The notes below the pieces were generated by a model, which was given only the letters and a program-made list of their open reading frames with translations, was not told the DNA's origin and searched no databases. From positions 1 through 18,983 of the forward strand of contig NZ_JOEH01000058.1 in NCBI RefSeq assembly GCF_000719095.1: a stretch of DNA of 18,983 nucleotides, given 5' to 3'. Position numbers and translations under genes: made by a program. This stretch comes from Streptacidiphilus jeojiense (GTDB taxonomy: Bacteria; Actinomycetota; Actinomycetes; Streptomycetales; Streptomycetaceae). Positions 5,904 through 18,983 of the stretch are shown here, piece after piece. How positions within the stretch are numbered: position 1 is the first letter of the stretch; each line of letters starts with the position of its first letter.

Positions 5904-6581
5904 TCAGGCCGCTTCGTCGTCCGTACGGCTCTGCCAGGCCAGGTCCGCGAGTTCATAGAACTTACGCATCTTGCCACCATACGGCGAGATGCGGGCACGT
6001 GTCGGCCGTGTGTGCTCCCAGAAGGCGTCGATGACGGGGCTGCTAAACAGGTGCCTGAGTGCCTCCAAAACCTCATCATCTGTATAGTAATTCATGCTGT
6101 AGACCATGCACTGAAATGAGATGATCAGGTTCGCATAGCAGAACTGTCGCTGACGATCGGGCGCTATATCGGGACCATAGCTGGGCCAGACGTCCGCCAA
6201 TACCTGATCCTCGAGGGCAAGGCGCATCAGTGTCACGTGCTCGCCTCGCACTGAAGCCTGCGCCAATCGCTCGGTGTAGTCGTGTCCCGTTTTGGCATCA
6301 AGGCGCTGTAGCCTCATCTCCTCGCACTGCTCCGCCATTTCTTCGCGGCGCAAGCGCGACTCGTCGGCCTGCAGGCGAAAACTTCTAGCCATGTAGAAGA
6401 GGACGAAGAATGACGCGCAGGCGGCAGCTGCGCCAAAGGCCTGGCCTGCGTTCCCACTGCCACTGGTCTGGAGGCCGGGGACTCGGACCAGGACGGCCGT
6501 CAGTGCGATCGATCCAACGCAGGAAACGGTTCCGATGAGCACGATCGAGCCCACGTGCCGCACGTGCCTCGCTGTGATCAT
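5904..6581 (-). CDS. DUF6082 family membrane protein
   Basis: This 225-residue protein has two hydrophobic helices (about residues 11-31 and 46-66), then a charged helical segment RSFRLQADESRLRREEMAEQ typical of DUF6082. The soluble part carries LMRLALEDQVLADVWPSYG, NLIISFQCMVY and FWEHTRPTR, all family-like. The topology suggests a membrane anchor with a cytoplasmic helical domain. A G-rich Shine-Dalgarno (GGGGGGTGA) lies 5' of the ATG. The ATG overlaps the stop of a 69-codon upstream frame (6578-6787, minus) by ATGA, but that frame has no supporting features and is not called. DUF6082 has no known activity. It is common in Streptomyces accessory regions near small HTH-linked genes. Confidence 0.82.
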   Translation of the reverse strand: MITARHVRHVGSIVLIGTVSCVGSIALTAVLVRVPGLQTSGSGNAGQAFGAAAACASFFVLFYMARSFRLQADESRLRREEMAEQCEEMRLQRLDAKTGHDYTERLAQASVRGEHVTLMRLALEDQVLADVWPSYGPDIAPDRQRQFCYANLIISFQCMVYSMNYYTDDEVLEALRHLFSSPVIDAFWEHTRPTRARISPYGGKMRKFYELADLAWQSRTDDEAA

Positions 6582-10826: not shown

Positions 10827-10900
10827 GGCGCTGTTCCCCAACGGGCAGAGGGGGCGGTCCGAGGGACCGTCAGTTGCAGGTTCGACTCCTGCTGGCGCCA
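10827..10900 (+). tRNA. tRNA-like gene, anticodon GAG, U33 replaced by C
   Basis: The 74 bases fold as a near-complete class I tRNA. Acceptor GGCGCTG/TGGCGCC has 7 pairs (2 are G-T). The D-stem CCCC/GGGG encloses a 10-base loop with GGG. Anticodon stem GCGGT/ACCGT encloses CCGAGGG, placing GAG (Leu) at 34-36. There is a 5-base variable region, and a perfect T-stem GCAGG/CCTGC around TTCGACT, then discriminator A. Oddities: position 33 is C rather than T, base 26 is missing, and a leucine tRNA should have a long variable arm. No CCA is encoded. It may be a specialised, phage-type or decayed tRNA, or an attachment-site remnant. The next gene's ATG starts two bases after its end. Confidence 0.55.
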
Positions 10901-10901
10901 C

Positions 10902-11933: not shown

Positions 11934-12060
11934 AGCACAGCAGGCCACCACCCACGGGGCAGCGGCAGGCACAGGCCCCGCGGCCAGCGCCCGCGTTCGC
12001 AGAGCATGCGAGGGAACCCGCTGCCGACGCCGCGGCCGCCCCATGGTGCGCGCAGCGCGC

Positions 12061-14274
12061 TCACCGGGGTGTCAGGACCGCGACCTCCCATCCGAAGCCG
12101 ACGACCAGCCGGCCGTCCTGGCACAGCGTCAGCGCGCGCACTGGCCCGGGGAACGCCAGCGGGCTTCCCAGGGGCCGGCCGTCGGTCAGGTCCCACATTC
12201 GCACGGTGCGGTCCCTGCTGCCGCTGACGGCCACCGGGCGGCCGTTCACCACACCGGTCGCCACCGCCTGGACCCAGTCGGTGTGCAAGGTGTGCAGTTT
12301 GCCAACGGGTTCGCGGCTGGCCAGATCCCAGACCTGCACCGTTGCGTCCCAGCCCCCGACCACGGCGACCGCCCGGCCCTGCACCTGTGCGGTGGCCACC
12401 GTCCTGGCCATCGCGTTCACCAGGCCGATGCGGCCGGTGAGCGGACTGCCGACCGGGGTGCCGCAGGCCAGGTCCGACAGGCGCACCGTCGTGTCCAGGC
12501 TTCCGGTGACAGCGACCGTGCGGCCCTCCAGTTCTGCGGTGGCCACCGATCCCACCGAGCCGTAGTGGCCGGTCAGGGGTGCGCTGATCGGGCGGCGGGT
12601 GGCCAGGTCCCACACCAGCACGGTCGCATCCCGGCAGCCGGCCAGGGCCACCGCGGTTCCCCCGAGCGTTGCTACCGCCAGTGACTGCACCTGGCCGGTG
12701 TGGCCCACCAGGGGCTCCCCCAGGGGCCGGCCGGTGGCCAGGTCCCAGACCCGGACCACGGCCTCCCAGCTGCCGGTCAGGACCGCGGGCCGGCCGTCCA
12801 CCACAGCGGTGGCGAGCGCGTCCACCGGCTGGGGAGGACTGATCACCGGCTCGGCGCAGGGCCGGCCGGCGGCCAGGCCCCACACCCGGACCGTGCCGTC
12901 CCGGCTGCTGGTGACCGCGACCGGGCGGCCGTCCACCTGCCCGGCCGCCACCGCGCGCACCTCGCCGGTGTGACCGCGGGGCACGCCGGTGACCGGGCGG
13001 GCCGGGGACAGGTCCCACACGCGCGCCTCCCCGTCCTCGTTGCCGCCGCTCACCGCGACCGTGCGACCGTCCACGACAGCGGTCGCCACCGCCCAGACCC
13101 CGTCGACGTGGCCGGCCAGAGGCTCCCCCACCGGTTGTCCGGCGGCCAGGTCCCACACCCGCACAGTGCCGTCCATGCAGCCGCCCACGACAACGGGGCG
13201 GCCCTGCACCGACCCTGTCGCCAGCGCGTAGACCGCTTCGGTCGAGCCGGCCAGAGGCTCCCCGACGGGTTGTCCGGTGGCCAGGTCCCACACCCGCACG
13301 CTCCCGTCCTGGCTGCCGGTCACCGCGACCGGGCGGCCGTCCAGCTGCGCGGTCGCCAGGGCCGGCACGCCTGCGGCGCAGTCGGCGAGAAAGCTGCCCA
13401 GGGGCTGTCTGGTGGCCAGGTCCCAGACCCGGACCGTCCCGTCCCAGCTCCAGACCACCACGACGGGCCGGCCCTCCATGACGGCCGTCGCCAGTCTCTG
13501 CACCGGGCCGTTGTCCCCGGTGAGGGCTTCGCCGACGAGCCGGCAGGTCGTCAGGTCCCAGATCCGCACCGTCCCGTCCCGGCTGCCGCTGATGGCGTGC
13601 AGGCGTGCGTCCAGCACCGCGGTCGCCACCGTGGCGACGACTTCGGTGTGGCCGGTCAGCGGATCGCCGAGACGGTGGCCGGTCGCCAGGTCCCAGACCT
13701 GCACGCTCCCGTCCCGGCTGCCGCCGACGGCCACGGTCCGGCCTCGAAGCACTCCCGTGGCCACCGCACGGACCTCGCTGTCCCCGACGGGCAGTTCGCC
13801 GACAGGTTGTCCGGTGGCCAGGTCCCACACCCGGACCGTGCGGTCGTCGCTGCTGCAGGTGACGGCCACCGGGCGGCCTTCGACCAGTCCCGTCGCCACC
13901 GAGCAGACCCGTTCGCTGTGGCCGACCAGAGCGTGCCGGAACCGGTGGTCGACCGTGCTGCCGGTCGCCCACGCGACGCTCCACGCTGTGTCCGCCATGT
14001 CCGCACCGTCCCCGACCGGTGCGGCGGCGATCCGCGCCGACAGGCCCAGGTCCCCGAAGCGGGCGGCGTCCAGCGCCAAGAGCTGCCGGCGGGACTGCGG
14101 ACCGGCCTGCCCGTGCAGATGCGCCGAGGCCCGGTACACCGCGTGCGCCAGCCGGACCGCGGGCCCCGGGATCCTCGCCAGTTCGTCCCGGACCTGCTCG
14201 GGGCCGGCGGTCACCAGGAACACCGCATCGGGCAGCGGAGCCTGGCCGTCGCCCGGAAAGCCCTCACCCCTCAT
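12061..14274 (-). CDS. 14-repeat WD40 protein with NTPase-type linker
   Basis: This 737-residue protein starts with about 110 residues of helical linker (VRLAHAVYRASAHLHGQAG, then SRRQLLALDAARFGDLGLSA). In Streptomyces this segment normally connects an AAA/NACHT-type NTPase to a WD40 tail; no NTPase is present here. From about residue 113 there are 14 repeats of roughly 45 residues, each with the pattern GH...V..VAT...GRPVAVTGS.DGTVRVWDLATG.PVGEPL. Fourteen fits two seven-bladed propellers. Several repeats have lost the GH or WD residues (for example repeats 5, 9 and 11). The DNA repeats are about 135 bp and highly alike, suggesting recent expansion. The ATG overlaps the TGA of the upstream membrane-protein gene (TGATG), so translation is coupled. 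Likely a protein-binding scaffold or sensor. Confidence 0.9.
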   Translation of the reverse strand: MRGEGFPGDGQAPLPDAVFLVTAGPEQVRDELARIPGPAVRLAHAVYRASAHLHGQAGPQSRRQLLALDAARFGDLGLSARIAAAPVGDGADMADTAWSVAWATGSTVDHRFRHALVGHSERVCSVATGLVEGRPVAVTCSSDDRTVRVWDLATGQPVGELPVGDSEVRAVATGVLRGRTVAVGGSRDGSVQVWDLATGHRLGDPLTGHTEVVATVATAVLDARLHAISGSRDGTVRIWDLTTCRLVGEALTGDNGPVQRLATAVMEGRPVVVVWSWDGTVRVWDLATRQPLGSFLADCAAGVPALATAQLDGRPVAVTGSQDGSVRVWDLATGQPVGEPLAGSTEAVYALATGSVQGRPVVVGGCMDGTVRVWDLAAGQPVGEPLAGHVDGVWAVATAVVDGRTVAVSGGNEDGEARVWDLSPARPVTGVPRGHTGEVRAVAAGQVDGRPVAVTSSRDGTVRVWGLAAGRPCAEPVISPPQPVDALATAVVDGRPAVLTGSWEAVVRVWDLATGRPLGEPLVGHTGQVQSLAVATLGGTAVALAGCRDATVLVWDLATRRPISAPLTGHYGSVGSVATAELEGRTVAVTGSLDTTVRLSDLACGTPVGSPLTGRIGLVNAMARTVATAQVQGRAVAVVGGWDATVQVWDLASREPVGKLHTLHTDWVQAVATGVVNGRPVAVSGSRDRTVRMWDLTDGRPLGSPLAFPGPVRALTLCQDGRLVVGFGWEVAVLTPR

Positions 14275-14990
14275 CAGCGCGTCCCCCCTTCCCGGCACAC
14301 AGCCCCAGCGCAGCCCCCGCGCAGCCCCCGCGCAGCCCCCGCAGAGCGCCTGCGGTACCGCAGGCGGTGCGCCGGCCGCCACAAGGCCCAGGCCACGCCG
14401 AAGCCGAGCGGGACCTGCAGCGCCCTTTGGACCACTGGCGCACCGGGGTCGCCGCCCCGCCCGACCCCTGCCAGCCCCCTCGGGTCCACCGTCACCACGT
14501 AGCTGCCCCCCACCCTCCAGGGCCACTGCGTGAACACGCCGCCCCGGACCGGGGCCAGCGGCGGACCGTCGAGAACCGAGACGGTGTAGAAGTTGACCTG
14601 GCCGCCGCTCATGCCGTCCTGGGATGCCTGGACGGACAGGACCCTGACGTGTTCGGTGCGCCCGAAGCGGTGCAACGCCTGCTGGTCCAGCTCGGACCGC
14701 TGCACCGTCAGAATCCCCAGCAGGAGCAGCGCGCCCACCAACCACCTCAGGCCCAGGAACCGGCGGACCCCGACCAGGCAGCAGGCCAGGAGGAGCGCAG
14801 CCGTAGCCGCCAGGTCGATCCACTGGGCGCGCCGGGAGAACGAGGCCTGTGCGATCACGCGCACGAGCACCCATAACCCGCACGCCCCCGCGAGGCTCAC
14901 CGCCGCCGGGACCACACTCCGCGCCGCCCTTCCCGCGGCCGGCCGCCGCCCAACCGCGCTCCACGCACCATCCGCACGACCCACACCCAT
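14274..14990 (-). CDS. multi-TM protein coupled to the WD40 gene
   Basis: ATG 14990 has GGAG 8 bases upstream and gives 238 residues; the longer frame from 15035 would overlap the promoter. There are three hydrophobic helices in the first 100 residues (VVPAAVSLAGACGLWVLVRV; IDLAATAALLLACCLVGV; LRWLVGALLLLGILTV). A soluble domain follows (TEHVRVLSVQASQDGMSGGQ, VNFYTVSVLDG, WRVGGSYVVTVDPRGLAGVG), in style like DUF3592 domains, with a weak fourth helix (PLGFGVAWALW) near the end. The basic, Ala/Gly-rich tail is encoded by an 11-bp tandem repeat. TGATG coupling makes it a probable partner that anchors or signals with the WD40 protein. I do not recognise an assigned family. Confidence 0.78.
   Translation of the reverse strand: MGVGRADGAWSAVGRRPAAGRAARSVVPAAVSLAGACGLWVLVRVIAQASFSRRAQWIDLAATAALLLACCLVGVRRFLGLRWLVGALLLLGILTVQRSELDQQALHRFGRTEHVRVLSVQASQDGMSGGQVNFYTVSVLDGPPLAPVRGGVFTQWPWRVGGSYVVTVDPRGLAGVGRGGDPGAPVVQRALQVPLGFGVAWALWRPAHRLRYRRRSAGAARGLRGGCAGAVCREGGTR
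14308..14340. repeat. 11-bp tandem repeat, three perfect copies
   Basis: GCGCAGCCCCC is repeated three times (14308-14318, 14319-14329, 14330-14340), with partial copies on both sides. It encodes part of the C-terminal tail of the membrane protein, 34 bases before its stop. The unit length is not a multiple of three, so gain or loss of a copy would change the tail and the stop used. Confidence 0.9.
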
Positions 14991-15033
14991 GATCGTCTCC
15001 GCCCCTGTGCCCCGGCAGTCACCCCTCGCCCCC

Positions 15034-15062
15034 ACCGTATGGATTGTTCAACGATCCATCAA
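15034..15062 (-). promoter_or_regulatory. promoter of the membrane protein/WD40 operon
   Basis: Read on the minus strand: -35 TTGATG (15062-15057), 17-base spacer, -10 TACGGT (15039-15034). The predicted start is near 15027, giving a leader of about 37 bases to ATG 14990. The spacer contains the GntR-type palindrome. Confidence 0.6.
15039..15059. promoter_or_regulatory. GntR (FCD-type) operator 1
   Basis: A 21-base palindrome: outer arms ATGGAT and ATCCAT, inner GTT and AAC. The core TTGTTCAACGA (15044-15054) fits the FadR-subfamily consensus TNGTNNNACNA. It fills the spacer of the divergent operon promoter, a position where binding would repress. Confidence 0.65.
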
Positions 15063-15131
15063 GGGGTTCGCCTCACAAGCCCAGAGACCACCCCTCCACC
15101 CGTTCCCAGCTGAGCCGAAGGAGGGTAACTT

Positions 15132-15142
15132 TTGTTCAACCA
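15132..15142 (+). promoter_or_regulatory. GntR (FCD-type) operator 2
   Basis: TTGTTCAACCA shares nine bases with the core of operator 1 and also fits TNGTNNNACNA. It lies 43 bases before the gntR start codon and overlaps a possible -10 (TAACTT, 15126-15131), consistent with self-repression. Confidence 0.6.
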
Positions 15143-15184
15143 GACTCCGACGCTGCGGATCCGCCAACACCACCGGACGGGACA

Positions 15185-15892
15185 ATGACCACGCACACAG
15201 CCCCGGGCTGGGTTACGGCGCTGGAACAGGCCAAGGGCCCCCTCGGCCGCGGCAGCACCGCCGAACGGATCGCCGACGTCCTACGGACACAGGTGACAGA
15301 CGGTCACATCGCGCCCGGAACACGACTGTCCGAGGAAACCGTGGGCGCGGCCCTGGGCGTATCCCGCAACACCCTGCGCGAGGCATTCCGGCTCCTGGCC
15401 CACGAACGGCTCCTGGTCCACGAATTGAACCGCGGCGTATTCGTCCGCACCCCGCACCCCGACGACGTCACCGAACTCTACCGACTGCGCCGCCTCATCG
15501 AAGGCGCCGCCGTCCGCGAAGTAGCCGGCGCCCCCGACCGGGCCATCGACGAAATCCGCAGATCCGTGGAAGAAGGAGAACAAGCAGCAGCCGAGCAGCG
15601 CTGGCCCGACGTCGCCACAGCCGACCTGCACTTCCACCGCGCAATCGTCCGACTGGCCGGATCCCCGCGACTGGAAGCCTTCATGGACCGCATCCACGCC
15701 GAACTACGCCTCGCCTTCCACGCCACCGGCGACCCGCAACGCTTCCACGCCCCCTACCTGAACCGCAACCGCGAACTCCTCACCGCCCTGCAGACACGCG
15801 ACACCCGCCAAGCCGAAATCCACCTCACCGCCTACCTCGACGACTCCGAGCGACAACTCCTGCGCACACTCCACGACACCGCCCACCCCTGA
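15185..15892 (+). CDS. GntR-family transcriptional regulator, FCD (FadR) subfamily
   Basis: This 235-residue protein has a winged HTH at about residues 24-88 (STAERIADVLRTQVTDGHIA, PGTRLSEETVGAALGVSRNT, LREAFRLLAHERLL). The C-terminal FCD domain (about 95-220) has LYRLRRLIEGAAVREVA and the metal/ligand segment D147-x3-H151 (ADLHFHRAIVRLAGSPRLE), with H213 near the end. Asn replaces the usual His in the NRELLTAL segment, so metal binding may differ. ATG 15185 (with GGACGGG upstream) is preferred over the longer frame from 15044, which would cover both operators. It is divergent from the WD40 operon. The effector is unknown; FCD regulators usually sense small carboxylates. Confidence 0.9.
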   Translation: MTTHTAPGWVTALEQAKGPLGRGSTAERIADVLRTQVTDGHIAPGTRLSEETVGAALGVSRNTLREAFRLLAHERLLVHELNRGVFVRTPHPDDVTELYRLRRLIEGAAVREVAGAPDRAIDEIRRSVEEGEQAAAEQRWPDVATADLHFHRAIVRLAGSPRLEAFMDRIHAELRLAFHATGDPQRFHAPYLNRNRELLTALQTRDTRQAEIHLTAYLDDSERQLLRTLHDTAHP

Positions 15893-15935
15893 CCTTGGCG
15901 CGCACCGCCGGTTGGCCGTCGCGCGGACCCAGACT

Positions 15936-17144
15936 TCACGGGATGAACTTCACCTCTGGGAAGGCCACGCTCGGGCCGTCGAGCAGATGCTCCCGGCGGT
16001 GCCGCGGGTGCAGGTCGAAGAAGGCGAGCGGGTACGCCTGCTGGATCCGCACCGCCCGGGCCGGATCGAGGGTGCCGATCATGTCCTGGACCTGCTGGTC
16101 GGTCATGCCGAGGAGCTTCGCCGCCTGCGGGATCAGCACCTCGTTGTCCCCGTAGGAGAAGTGGAGGGCCCCGTCGGCCTGGATGTTGAGCCGCCACCCG
16201 CGCAGATGCGTCCAGAACTCGGCGACGTCCGGCATGGCCGCCCGGGTGAAGACGGCGGTCATCATCATGAACGGCCGGTCCAGGTCGGCGGTGATGGTCG
16301 GCTGCATCGGGCCGTCCAGGCTCAACCCGGCGCTGACGCGCTGGTCGGCGAGCATGGTGAGGGCCGTGGCGGTGCCGCCCTTGGACCAGCCGAGCAGGCC
16401 GATGCGCTGCGGGTCCAGGGCGCCGAGCAGGCCGGCGGGCAGCTGCTTGCCGTCGGTATCGGGGTTGCGCCCGGCGGCGAGTTCCTCCACGCAGTCGAGC
16501 AGGAAGCGGATGTCGGCGGCGTAGTCCTTCGGGTACAGGGAGACGTTGTAGCTGTCCGGGGTGAGCACCCGGCCGTCGGGGAACTCGGTGATCGCGTCGT
16601 AGGTGTGGTCGACGGTGACCACGACGTAGCCGTGGCTGGCGAGTTCCTGGACCATGACGGTGTGGTCGGCGCGGTGGCTGCCCGCGCCGTGCGAGTACAC
16701 CACGACGGGCAGCCGGTGGCCCGTGCGGTGCACGGGGGCGCCCGCGTGCCCGGCGGTGAGCGGAACGAGGGTGGGGTCGATGGGGAAGCCGGTGTAGGTC
16801 AGGAACGCCTGCATCGCGCCGTCGGGCATCCAGGGCGCGCGCGGGTAGTCGCCGGTGTCCCGGGCGGGGTACCAGACGCTGGCCATCAACTCGCGGTAAT
16901 GCCCCGGGCCGGCCACAGGATCCGGGCGTGAAGCGTCCATGAGGTGCAGCGGCACCGTGCCCACCGGGTGCGGCCCGGTGGGCACGGGCAGGGTGAGCCG
17001 CGCCGGGCCAGGGGCGGTGGCAGCCGCCCAAGCGGGGCGTGCGGCGCCGAGCGGCGCGGCGGCCCCGACGCCGACGACGAGCGCGGTTGCGAGCATGCGA
17101 CGGCGCGGCATGTCCGTCTCGGAGGTATCCGGCGTGATGGTCAC
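15936..17144 (-). CDS. Tat-exported alpha/beta hydrolase, PAF-acetylhydrolase-like
   Basis: From GTG 17144 (GAGGGAG just upstream) the protein is 402 residues. It opens with a twin-arginine signal: MPRRRMLATALVVGVGAAAP, cleavage probably after ARPAWA (residue 40). The catalytic core has SHGAGSHR (150-157, oxyanion hole), GWSKG (251-255, Ser253 nucleophile), SLDGPMQP (Asp276) and GALHFSYGD (His327). This order and the long insert before the nucleophile fit the PAF-AH isoform II / secreted lipase family of Streptomyces. It probably hydrolyses short-chain esters or phospholipids outside the cell. It converges on gntR with 43 bases between stops. An ATG at 17180 is in frame but would put extra residues before the signal. 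Confidence 0.88.
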   Translation of the reverse strand: MTITPDTSETDMPRRRMLATALVVGVGAAAPLGAARPAWAAATAPGPARLTLPVPTGPHPVGTVPLHLMDASRPDPVAGPGHYRELMASVWYPARDTGDYPRAPWMPDGAMQAFLTYTGFPIDPTLVPLTAGHAGAPVHRTGHRLPVVVYSHGAGSHRADHTVMVQELASHGYVVVTVDHTYDAITEFPDGRVLTPDSYNVSLYPKDYAADIRFLLDCVEELAAGRNPDTDGKQLPAGLLGALDPQRIGLLGWSKGGTATALTMLADQRVSAGLSLDGPMQPTITADLDRPFMMMTAVFTRAAMPDVAEFWTHLRGWRLNIQADGALHFSYGDNEVLIPQAAKLLGMTDQQVQDMIGTLDPARAVRIQQAYPLAFFDLHPRHRREHLLDGPSVAFPEVKFIP

Positions 17145-17246
17145 ACGTCTCCCTCGGGTTCCTTGAACGGTGTTCGGCATGCTGTCGGTGTTCGCCGGGC
17201 TGCGGTGCGAGCGGATCGTTGCGGACGCGGTGCCCCGGTGCCCGGG

Positions 17247-17585
17247 CTAGGACTTCGGGGCCGAGCTGCCTTGTTCGATCTGGCGAATGAGTCGCTTGAG
17301 CTGGGTGACTTCGTCCTGGAGGGCGCGGTTGCCGGCGGGGGTCAGGGAGAGCCAGGTACGGGCGCGCTTCCCCTCGTAGCCCTTCTCGACGTGGATCAGC
17401 CCGGCCTTCTCCAACACGGCCAGGTGCTGGCTGAGGTTGCCGGAGGTCAGGCCGAGCGCCGTGCGCAGGAAGCCGAACTCGACCCGCCGTGCCTGGTGGG
17501 CGACGGTCAGGATGCCGAGGCGAACGCGCTGATGGACCACGTCGTCAAGGCCGTTGACGGGGTGCTGATCGGGCTCAGCGGTCAT
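17247..17585 (-). CDS. winged-helix transcriptional regulator
   Basis: This 112-residue protein has a winged helix: RVRLGILTVAHQARRVEFGF, then LRTALGLTSGNLSQHLAVLE (recognition region about 45-62) and KAGLIHVEKGYEGKRARTWL (the wing). The family (ArsR/MarR-like, HTH_27 type) regularly pairs with a membrane protein in actinobacteria. ATG 17585 overlaps the TGA of the upstream membrane-protein gene (ATGA), so the two are coupled. The palindrome at 18356-18372 in front of the pair is a likely operator. No metal-binding cysteines of ArsR sensors are present. The C-terminal 25 residues form a helix probably used for dimerisation. Confidence 0.88.
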   Translation of the reverse strand: MTAEPDQHPVNGLDDVVHQRVRLGILTVAHQARRVEFGFLRTALGLTSGNLSQHLAVLEKAGLIHVEKGYEGKRARTWLSLTPAGNRALQDEVTQLKRLIRQIEQGSSAPKS

Positions 17586-18340
17586 GACACGTCGCGCTGA
17601 CGACGCCGTTGGCTCACGGCGAAGCCGACAGCGCCGAACAGGAGGAACGCGGCGGGAACGACCAGGCGCGGCAGACCCGACCAGGGCGAGGTGGCACCGA
17701 TCCCGGCCCAGCCGGTGGACAGCGGCGCCAGCTCGATGGCCAGGTAGGCCAGGGCGAAGAACAGCAGGGCGCGACTGCGTTCCACCCAGGCCAGCACCAG
17801 CAACGGCAACCCGACCGATGCGGCCGCTCCGGTGAGCTGCATGAGGAACTGCGTCAGCCCCGAGGCGGGATCCAGTTGCAGGCCCCAGAGGTCGAGCGGG
17901 GCGCCGGGCTGCGGCATCCCGTGCCGAGTGCCCCAGAACGAGGTCGCGGCCACCAGGGCGACCAGGACGATTCCAGCGAGGACGTAGGGCCGGACCGGGG
18001 TGCCGACGCCGCGGTTGCGGGAACGGCGGATGTAGAACCATGCGGTCGCGGCGTAGACCACGGCGATGCCGAGCGTCCAGTAGACCGCCGACCCCTGCCT
18101 GGTGACGGTGCAGCCCGGCTGAACAGCGCCTGCCGTGCCGGGGACGGCCGGGCAGGTGGAGACGGTGTGGACACTGAAGGTGAAACGGTCGACGAGGATC
18201 CCGCCGAGGGTGAGCACACCGAACAGCAGCAGGGGGAGCCAGGTGCCGCGCTGGGCTGAGCGGACCCTGCCGGTCAGGTCGCGGAGGCCGGCAAGGACTT
18301 CATGGGGGGTGCCCGGCGAAGGCACCGATACATCTGACAT
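17582..18340 (-). CDS. six-TM membrane protein partner of the regulator
   Basis: This 252-residue protein starts with a cytoplasmic segment (LAGLRDLTGRVRSAQRGTWL) and has six hydrophobic helices at about 33-52, 87-105, 118-137, 163-183, 188-208 and 224-243, ending in basic RRRQRDVS. A loop between helices 1 and 2 has two cysteines (STCPAV, QPGCTV) that could form an external disulfide. No transporter motif is seen. The regularly observed pairing with a small winged-helix regulator suggests the regulator controls it or is controlled through it. ATG 18340 has no Shine-Dalgarno (the upstream is AAGCTGCGTGT), so the mRNA may be leaderless or have a weak site. Confidence 0.85.
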   Translation of the reverse strand: MSDVSVPSPGTPHEVLAGLRDLTGRVRSAQRGTWLPLLLFGVLTLGGILVDRFTFSVHTVSTCPAVPGTAGAVQPGCTVTRQGSAVYWTLGIAVVYAATAWFYIRRSRNRGVGTPVRPYVLAGIVLVALVAATSFWGTRHGMPQPGAPLDLWGLQLDPASGLTQFLMQLTGAAASVGLPLLVLAWVERSRALLFFALAYLAIELAPLSTGWAGIGATSPWSGLPRLVVPAAFLLFGAVGFAVSQRRRQRDVS

Positions 18341-18355
18341 ACACGCAGCTTTGCA

Positions 18356-18372
18356 TCACAAACCAGTTGTGA
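18356..18372. promoter_or_regulatory. 17-base palindromic operator before the membrane protein/regulator pair
   Basis: TCACAA and TTGTGA flank ACCAG, ending 16 bases upstream of the ATG at 18340. On the minus strand a -35-like TTGTCA (18375-18370) overlaps it. The position fits repression by the small winged-helix protein encoded second in the operon. Confidence 0.6.
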
Positions 18373-18423
18373 CAAGAGACCTATGCGAAACCGCTGCTGA
18401 CGCGACGGTCCTCGACCCTCGCG

Positions 18424-18800
18424 TCACGACCGACCGCCACCCAACACACCCTCCGCGACCGGCAGTAGAGCGTGCGTCAGGGCACCACCGACCCGTGGGT
18501 GGCCACCGATCTCGCCGCGCTCCATGACCGGGACACCGGTGAGCCGCATGACCTGCTCACGAGCCCCCTCGACCGGCTCAGCGGTCTCCCGCTCGCGCTC
18601 CCCCCAGACGTACCAGCACCACCCCAGGATCAGCTCCCCGCCGGTCACACGACGCGCCATCAGGTTGCGCTGCTGGCCAGCCAACGGGTCATCACGTCGC
18701 CCCTCGCCCAGCAGACCCGGGACTGGGCCGAGGCGGGGCGGTGCTCGCAGTCGCGTACCAGCCACCGGCGCAGCATCAAGAGCCCGTTCCGCTGCTCCAC
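18424..18800 (-). pseudogene. conserved small protein gene with one-base frameshift
   Basis: From GTG 18800 or ATG 18776 the frame gives MLRRWLVRDCEHRPASAQSR, then VCWARGDVMTRWLASSAT and a stop (TGA, overlapping an ATG). The next frame continues RNLMARRVTGGELILGWCWY, VWGERERETAEPVEGAREQV, MRLTGVPVMERGEI, ending at 18424. Both halves have strong third-position bias. Adding one C near 18672-18676 joins them as ...MTRWLASQRNLMARRV..., giving a protein of about 125 residues. The function is unknown to me; no membrane segment is seen. The start GTG lies 26 bases after the stop of the upstream gene, so they form an operon. The frameshift may be genuine or a sequencing error. Confidence 0.5.
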
Positions 18801-18826
18801 TCCCCCAGCGGCGCTGCGCTCGGGTG

Positions 18827-18983
18827 TCAGAACAGGGCATCCTGCTCCTGTGCTTCGCTCGGGGTGTGCAGAGGCTCGAGCTCAGCGGTGAGCAGTGTGC
18901 CGGCCGCGGCCCGGTCCAGGGCCCATCCGGTCAGGAGCCGAGTGTCCAGCAGGACCAGGCCCTGGGCGGTCTCCAGGTAGAGG
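18827..18983 (-). CDS. C-terminal end of an unidentified protein (partial)
   Basis: The minus frame is open from the window edge to TGA at 18829-18827, giving 51 residues: LYLETAQGLVLLDTRLLTGW, ALDRAAAGTLLTAELEPLHT, PSEAQEQDALF. Third positions are almost all G or C, so it is real coding DNA. No start is in the window. No family is recognised from this piece. Confidence 0.6.
   Translation of the reverse strand, partial: LYLETAQGLVLLDTRLLTGWALDRAAAGTLLTAELEPLHTPSEAQEQDALF

Follow-up and report, generated by a model that had tools for sequence, protein, structure and literature searches.

A PxpR-like repressor and its conserved operator are predicted to control a membrane protein/WD40 operon in Streptacidiphilus jeojiense

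The stretch of DNA that we analyzed, which we will call the window, is 18,983 nucleotides long and is one whole contig of the genome of Streptacidiphilus jeojiense (9,155,087 bases in 143 contigs). It contains a regulatory gene of the GntR family, gntR, and a divergent operon of two genes, which encode a membrane protein and a WD40 protein. The gap between gntR and the membrane protein gene is 194 nt and contains two copies of a putative operator:

12061..14274, minus strand: WD40 gene, 737 amino acids; its start overlaps the stop of the membrane protein gene (TGATG)
14274..14990, minus strand: membrane protein gene, 238 amino acids; first gene of the operon divergent from gntR
15034..15039, minus strand: probable -10 of the membrane/WD40 operon, TACGGT; the TA is kept in 13 of the 14 membrane-gene promoters displayed; absent from the result of a strict promoter scan
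15041..15057, no strand assigned: box 1, GGATTGTTCAACGATCC, a 17-bp palindromic putative PxpR-type operator that lies within the membrane/WD40 promoter
15057..15062, minus strand: probable -35 of the membrane/WD40 operon, TTGATG; the TTG is kept in all 14 membrane-gene promoters displayed
15126..15131, plus strand: probable -10 of gntR, TAACTT; overlapped by box 2; all 8 displayed loci have TA directly 5' of this box
15129..15145, plus strand: box 2, CTTTTGTTCAACCAGAC, before gntR; less symmetric than box 1; an equivalent is present in 8 of 8 subclade loci
15185..15892, plus strand: gntR, encoding a PxpR-like GntR/FCD regulator of 235 amino acids (assigned from its Pfam domains and a tree); the start is kept in close relatives

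The regulator has an N-terminal GntR helix-turn-helix domain (PF00392, 53.1 bits) and a C-terminal FCD domain (PF07729, 76.2 bits), both above the cut-off. By sequence, the closest solved structure is another GntR protein, 2hs5 (E = 6.1e-51, with both domains aligned), and the closest named relative in our genome collection is S. carbonis, whose regulator is 89% identical to the one in the window. The membrane protein has no match in Pfam or NCBIfam, and its named homologs among those listed are all annotated as “hypothetical” or “uncharacterized.” Its AlphaFold model (mean pLDDT of 61.7) is too low in confidence for a fold search. We considered whether the WD40 unit might be part of an anti-phage defense system and compared both proteins to the PADLOC families: the membrane protein has no match, and the WD40 protein has one, to HEAT-ARM_XIII (E = 8.5e-26), in which the best stretch covers 87 amino acids of repeats out of a model of 1972 positions. 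Elsewhere in the window, a tRNA-Leu (GAG) at 10827-10901 immediately precedes an open reading frame with a weak match to a bacterial PH domain.

The probable promoter of the membrane/WD40 operon, on the minus strand, has TTGATG at 15062-15057 and TACGGT at 15039-15034, separated by a 17-nt spacer; the ATG at 14990 comes 44 nt after TACGGT. The original prediction was that a palindrome fills this spacer, and it does so almost exactly: 16 of the 17 bases of box 1 lie within the spacer, and one overlaps the -35. TACGGT is a weak -10, and a strict scan of 12000-18983 for sigma-70 promoters listed none (a scan of the same region for consensus terminators likewise gave no sites). We call this a promoter because its layout is conserved in relatives. 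The operator lies in the spacer in all 14 of the membrane-gene promoters displayed, and the same layout is present in unrelated MFS and pxpA promoters of the regulator’s relatives. The position of box 1 between the -35 and the -10 is consistent with repression.

Both boxes had been predicted to fit a GntR consensus, and TNGTNNNACNA matches at 15044 and 15132. The 194-nt gap has no other match. The second core was correctly placed before gntR, but it ends 42 bases, rather than 43, 5' of the ATG at 15185. Box 2 is imperfect, yet it is kept in all eight of the subclade loci displayed (counting the window). Because box 2 overlies the probable -10 of gntR, autorepression is suggested, and, given this conservation, gntR and its two boxes probably form an autoregulated local switch.

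Could the boxes be chance matches to a loose consensus? TNGTNNNACNA by itself is loose: it has five matches in the window, of which the boxes are two. However, two or more matches were found in just 0.02% of 20,000 Markov-1 shuffles of the gap, and two copies of the core TTGTTCAAC, on either strand, in none of 20,000 such shuffles. The strict 15-mer GATYGTTSAACRATC has one exact copy in the 9,155,087-base genome, as compared to 0.006 expected (from base composition, on one strand). We also searched for the box at the loci of 7 other GntR genes of S. jeojiense and of 25 other relatives of the N-terminal part of the WD40 protein (a part of those matched), and we found none.

To these results we can add conservation at the regulator’s own loci. 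Relatives of the regulator were found in 206 of 394 genomes from the family (E ≤ 1e-60) and in 50 of 296 genomes from the class (E ≤ 1e-30). From these we took in 58 loci, which are the best-scoring part of a larger number of matches; a duplicate (L038) and a distant paralog (L041) were left out and L093 was added. In 57 of the 58 loci, a box of the form [TC]GTT[CG]AAC[GA] lies within the 420 nt before the regulator; the sole exception, L015, has no box in that interval. The check proposed along with the original prediction, conservation of both boxes in homologous loci, thus came out in its favor. Given this conservation, the unique 15-mer, and the shuffles, we reject a chance origin of the boxes, which we consider extremely improbable.

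The regulator and its boxes had also been described as a self-contained switch. The uniqueness of the strict site in the genome agrees with this, but weaker targets may exist in trans. We found nine places in the S. jeojiense genome that differ from the site at two bases and eight that differ from a second pattern at one base, and we examined all nine of the former and three of the eight latter with a rough screen for open reading frames. (The control for the two-mismatch scan, which used the reversed pattern, is a poor one, since that pattern includes CTAG.) Four of the two-mismatch sites (L043, L044, L048, and L049) lie outside of called open reading frames, so a wider regulon may exist. One possible weaker target is L048, at contig C30:66426-66440.

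The boxes resemble a known operator. In Corynebacterium glutamicum, PxpR is a GntR repressor of pxpTABC with the operator 5'-agattgttcaacaatct-3'; altering or deleting this operator raised expression of a reporter by 6.5-fold, and PxpR bound 5-oxoproline (pyroglutamate) with a KD of 726 nM (PMC13274462). Box 1 is identical to this reporter-tested operator at 14 of 17 bases (PMC13274462). Among the papers that we found, PMC13274462 is the only one on a GntR regulator of 5-oxoproline; we found nothing that joins a GntR regulator with 5-oxoprolinase, or a WD40 protein with a GntR operon, in Streptomyces.

Several relatives of the regulator adjoin, or sit within, operons that encode an MFS permease, D-glutamate cyclase, LamB/YcsF (PxpA), and CT_A_B (PxpC). 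At these pxp-linked loci, the divergent gene has the box within its promoter. In two cases (L091 from genome G010 and L094 from genome G119), the pxp operon ends with the regulator gene, and a box stands before the operon as well as before the regulator. At another locus (L101), a further full PxpR-type box (6173-6189) precedes a DUF969 gene next to pxpR; this gene might encode a transporter for 5-oxoproline. The pxpA/pxpC locus of S. jeojiense itself (L096, on contig C13) has neither a box nor a regulator. Because the pxp genes of this genome lack both linkage and box, we call the regulator in the window PxpR-like, not PxpR; and linkage therefore gives no support to a role for 5-oxoproline in S. 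jeojiense.

To examine the targets of the box, we searched for homologs of the membrane protein and found them at 17 distinct places, in 10 of 394 genomes from the family and 8 of 392 Streptomyces genomes. All 15 of the membrane genes with an intact 5' end have a box upstream, and in 14 of these it is at most 92 nt from the start of the match (in L143, it is about 240 nt away). These 15 include a gene in G539 that matches over the first 93 residues only and one in G003 with a stop inside the match. The C-terminal fragments of the gene in G271 and G313 have no box. In contrast, the WD40 gene accompanies the membrane gene at just 5 of the 15 loci, and the other 10 have another gene, which we will call V (about 211-280 amino acids). 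We considered whether the WD40 gene is the conserved target, but we rejected this because the 25 other WD40 loci that we fetched lack a box, whereas every membrane gene with an intact 5' end has one. The WD40 scaffold had been viewed as the point of the switch. As judged from these neighborhoods, the box has the membrane gene as its constant target, and WD40 is a lineage-specific partner.

At nine of the ten loci with V, this gene and the membrane gene diverge; at the tenth, V lies behind the regulator. V of L145 (5823-6455), from Streptomyces, lies across the boxed intergenic region from the membrane gene, and V follows pxpR in L093 (7004-7843) and in L097 (3908-4720). V proteins from L145 and L093 have no match in Pfam. 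In G114, the membrane protein and the WD40 protein are encoded by one reading frame of 1,000 codons (L098, 3001-6003), which suggests that the two proteins might be physical partners. In S. carbonis (L038, 4356-5114), about 256 of the 737 WD40 residues are matched, beside conserved boxes and a membrane gene, so the WD40 gene there looks truncated.

Ten of the 15 boxed membrane-gene loci have no pxpR in the 3.3-11 kb that we fetched. In three of those ten genomes (G297, G177, and G326), a relative of the regulator is encoded elsewhere, on another contig or 3.8 Mb away. In G010, divergent membrane and WD40 genes lie on contig C2 with two boxes between them, and the sole close relative of the regulator is in the pxp operon on contig C1. 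Since these membrane genes are boxed without a local regulator, the operator stays with the membrane gene in trans as well.

This bears on another explanation, which is that the regulator is an activator, or that it acts mainly on its own gene while box 1 is shared or passive. The boxes serve both of the divergent genes, which leaves some room for such a role. But box 1 lies between the -35 and the -10, where a bound protein would block the polymerase; PxpR from C. glutamicum is a repressor (PMC13274462); and membrane genes retain the box even where no regulator gene lies close by. We consider an activator or a passive box 1 to be quite improbable, and we continue with the view that the regulator represses the membrane/WD40 operon.

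In a tree of 40 regulators, the regulator from the window groups with seven others (support 100/99). Of these eight, two (L011 and L014) are linked to pxp genes, and the other six form a single branch (99/96). We will call these six the switched regulators: four adjoin membrane and WD40 genes, and L093 adjoins a membrane gene. In the sixth, L013, the divergent reading frame beside the box is only 56 amino acids and may be a remnant.

We took 52 comparison regulators and asked which of the positions conserved in at least 90% of them are kept by the regulator from the window. It keeps 50 of 53 such positions in the helix-turn-helix region and, in the FCD part, 34 of 37. D97E and N147D occur in all six switched regulators, against at least 90% of the comparison set, and the third change in the FCD part, E165A, occurs in three of the six. 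Position 147 directly precedes a conserved FH, and an aspartate at the equivalent position binds metal in many FCD proteins.

These changes raise the possibility that the repressor and its boxes are unchanged but that the effector has changed, so that the switched subclade responds to a different small molecule instead of 5-oxoproline. That both substitutions are found in all six switched regulators, while L011 and L014 retain N147, fits with this idea, as does the lack of a box at the pxpA locus of S. jeojiense. On the other hand, most of the conserved FCD positions are kept, and 2hs5 also has aspartate at position 147, so aspartate alone is no proof of a new ligand. Also, in G010, a single regulator in a pxp operon is the only candidate to control the boxed membrane/WD40 pair on the other contig. 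We consider a changed effector to be unlikely, though it deserves some weight. The original prediction of a small carboxylate as the ligand would narrow to 5-oxoproline, which we propose because the operator is that of PxpR. 5-Oxoproline is likely to be the inducer of the regulator from the window.

Overall, we propose that gntR encodes a PxpR-like GntR/FCD repressor that controls both itself and the membrane/WD40 unit, with 5-oxoproline as the likely inducer; we put the probability of this reading at roughly 0.8. We infer binding and repression from several features of the sequence: the conserved boxes, the layout of the promoter, the regulator’s place in a PxpR-like clade, and the link between the box and the membrane gene, in trans as well. 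Bound to box 1, a dimer would block RNA polymerase between the -35 and the -10 of the membrane/WD40 operon; bound to box 2, another dimer would sit over the probable -10 and start region of gntR, leading to self-repression. The effector, most likely 5-oxoproline, would release the repressor and turn on the membrane protein, along with its WD40 partner in the lineage of the window. If so, the membrane/WD40 pair gains a candidate regulator, an exact operator, and a candidate inducer, and its function could be tested by adding 5-oxoproline.

More tentatively, and at slightly less than even odds, a repressor of the 5-oxoproline pathway may now command a non-metabolic envelope module in the Streptomycetaceae. 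This module would consist of the membrane protein and a swappable partner (the WD40 propeller or V), and 5-oxoproline or a close ligand would serve as a signal for the envelope or scaffold. In the lineage of the window, the regulator would have left the pathway genes, with its pocket possibly altered (N147D). The regulator appears to keep its operator while its targets rewire, and several states are seen: pxp genes only, pxp genes plus a boxed membrane/WD40 pair in trans (as in G010), and the membrane/WD40 pair alone.

Among known systems, the ycsFGI-kipIAR operon of Bacillus subtilis has a regulator, KipR, from the IclR family. This operon is similar in gene content to the pxp operons of the regulator’s relatives, and it is not known to have a membrane/WD40 target. 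PxpR from C. glutamicum and the regulator from the window are both GntR regulators with a C-terminal ligand domain, and both have a nearly identical 17-bp inverted repeat before a divergent operon. This likeness lies in the operator and the domain type. The systems differ in their targets, which are a transporter and 5-oxoprolinase in C. glutamicum and the membrane/WD40 operon in the window. Also, the second box before the regulator suggests autoregulation in the window, whereas the authors thought autoregulation unlikely in C. glutamicum (PMC13274462). PxpR-like regulators from Streptomyces and other actinomycetes (such as L094 and L102) are about 52-58% identical to the regulator from the window and share its box and its promoter with the operator in the spacer, but their box serves genes for the MFS permease, D-glutamate cyclase, pxpA, and pxpC.
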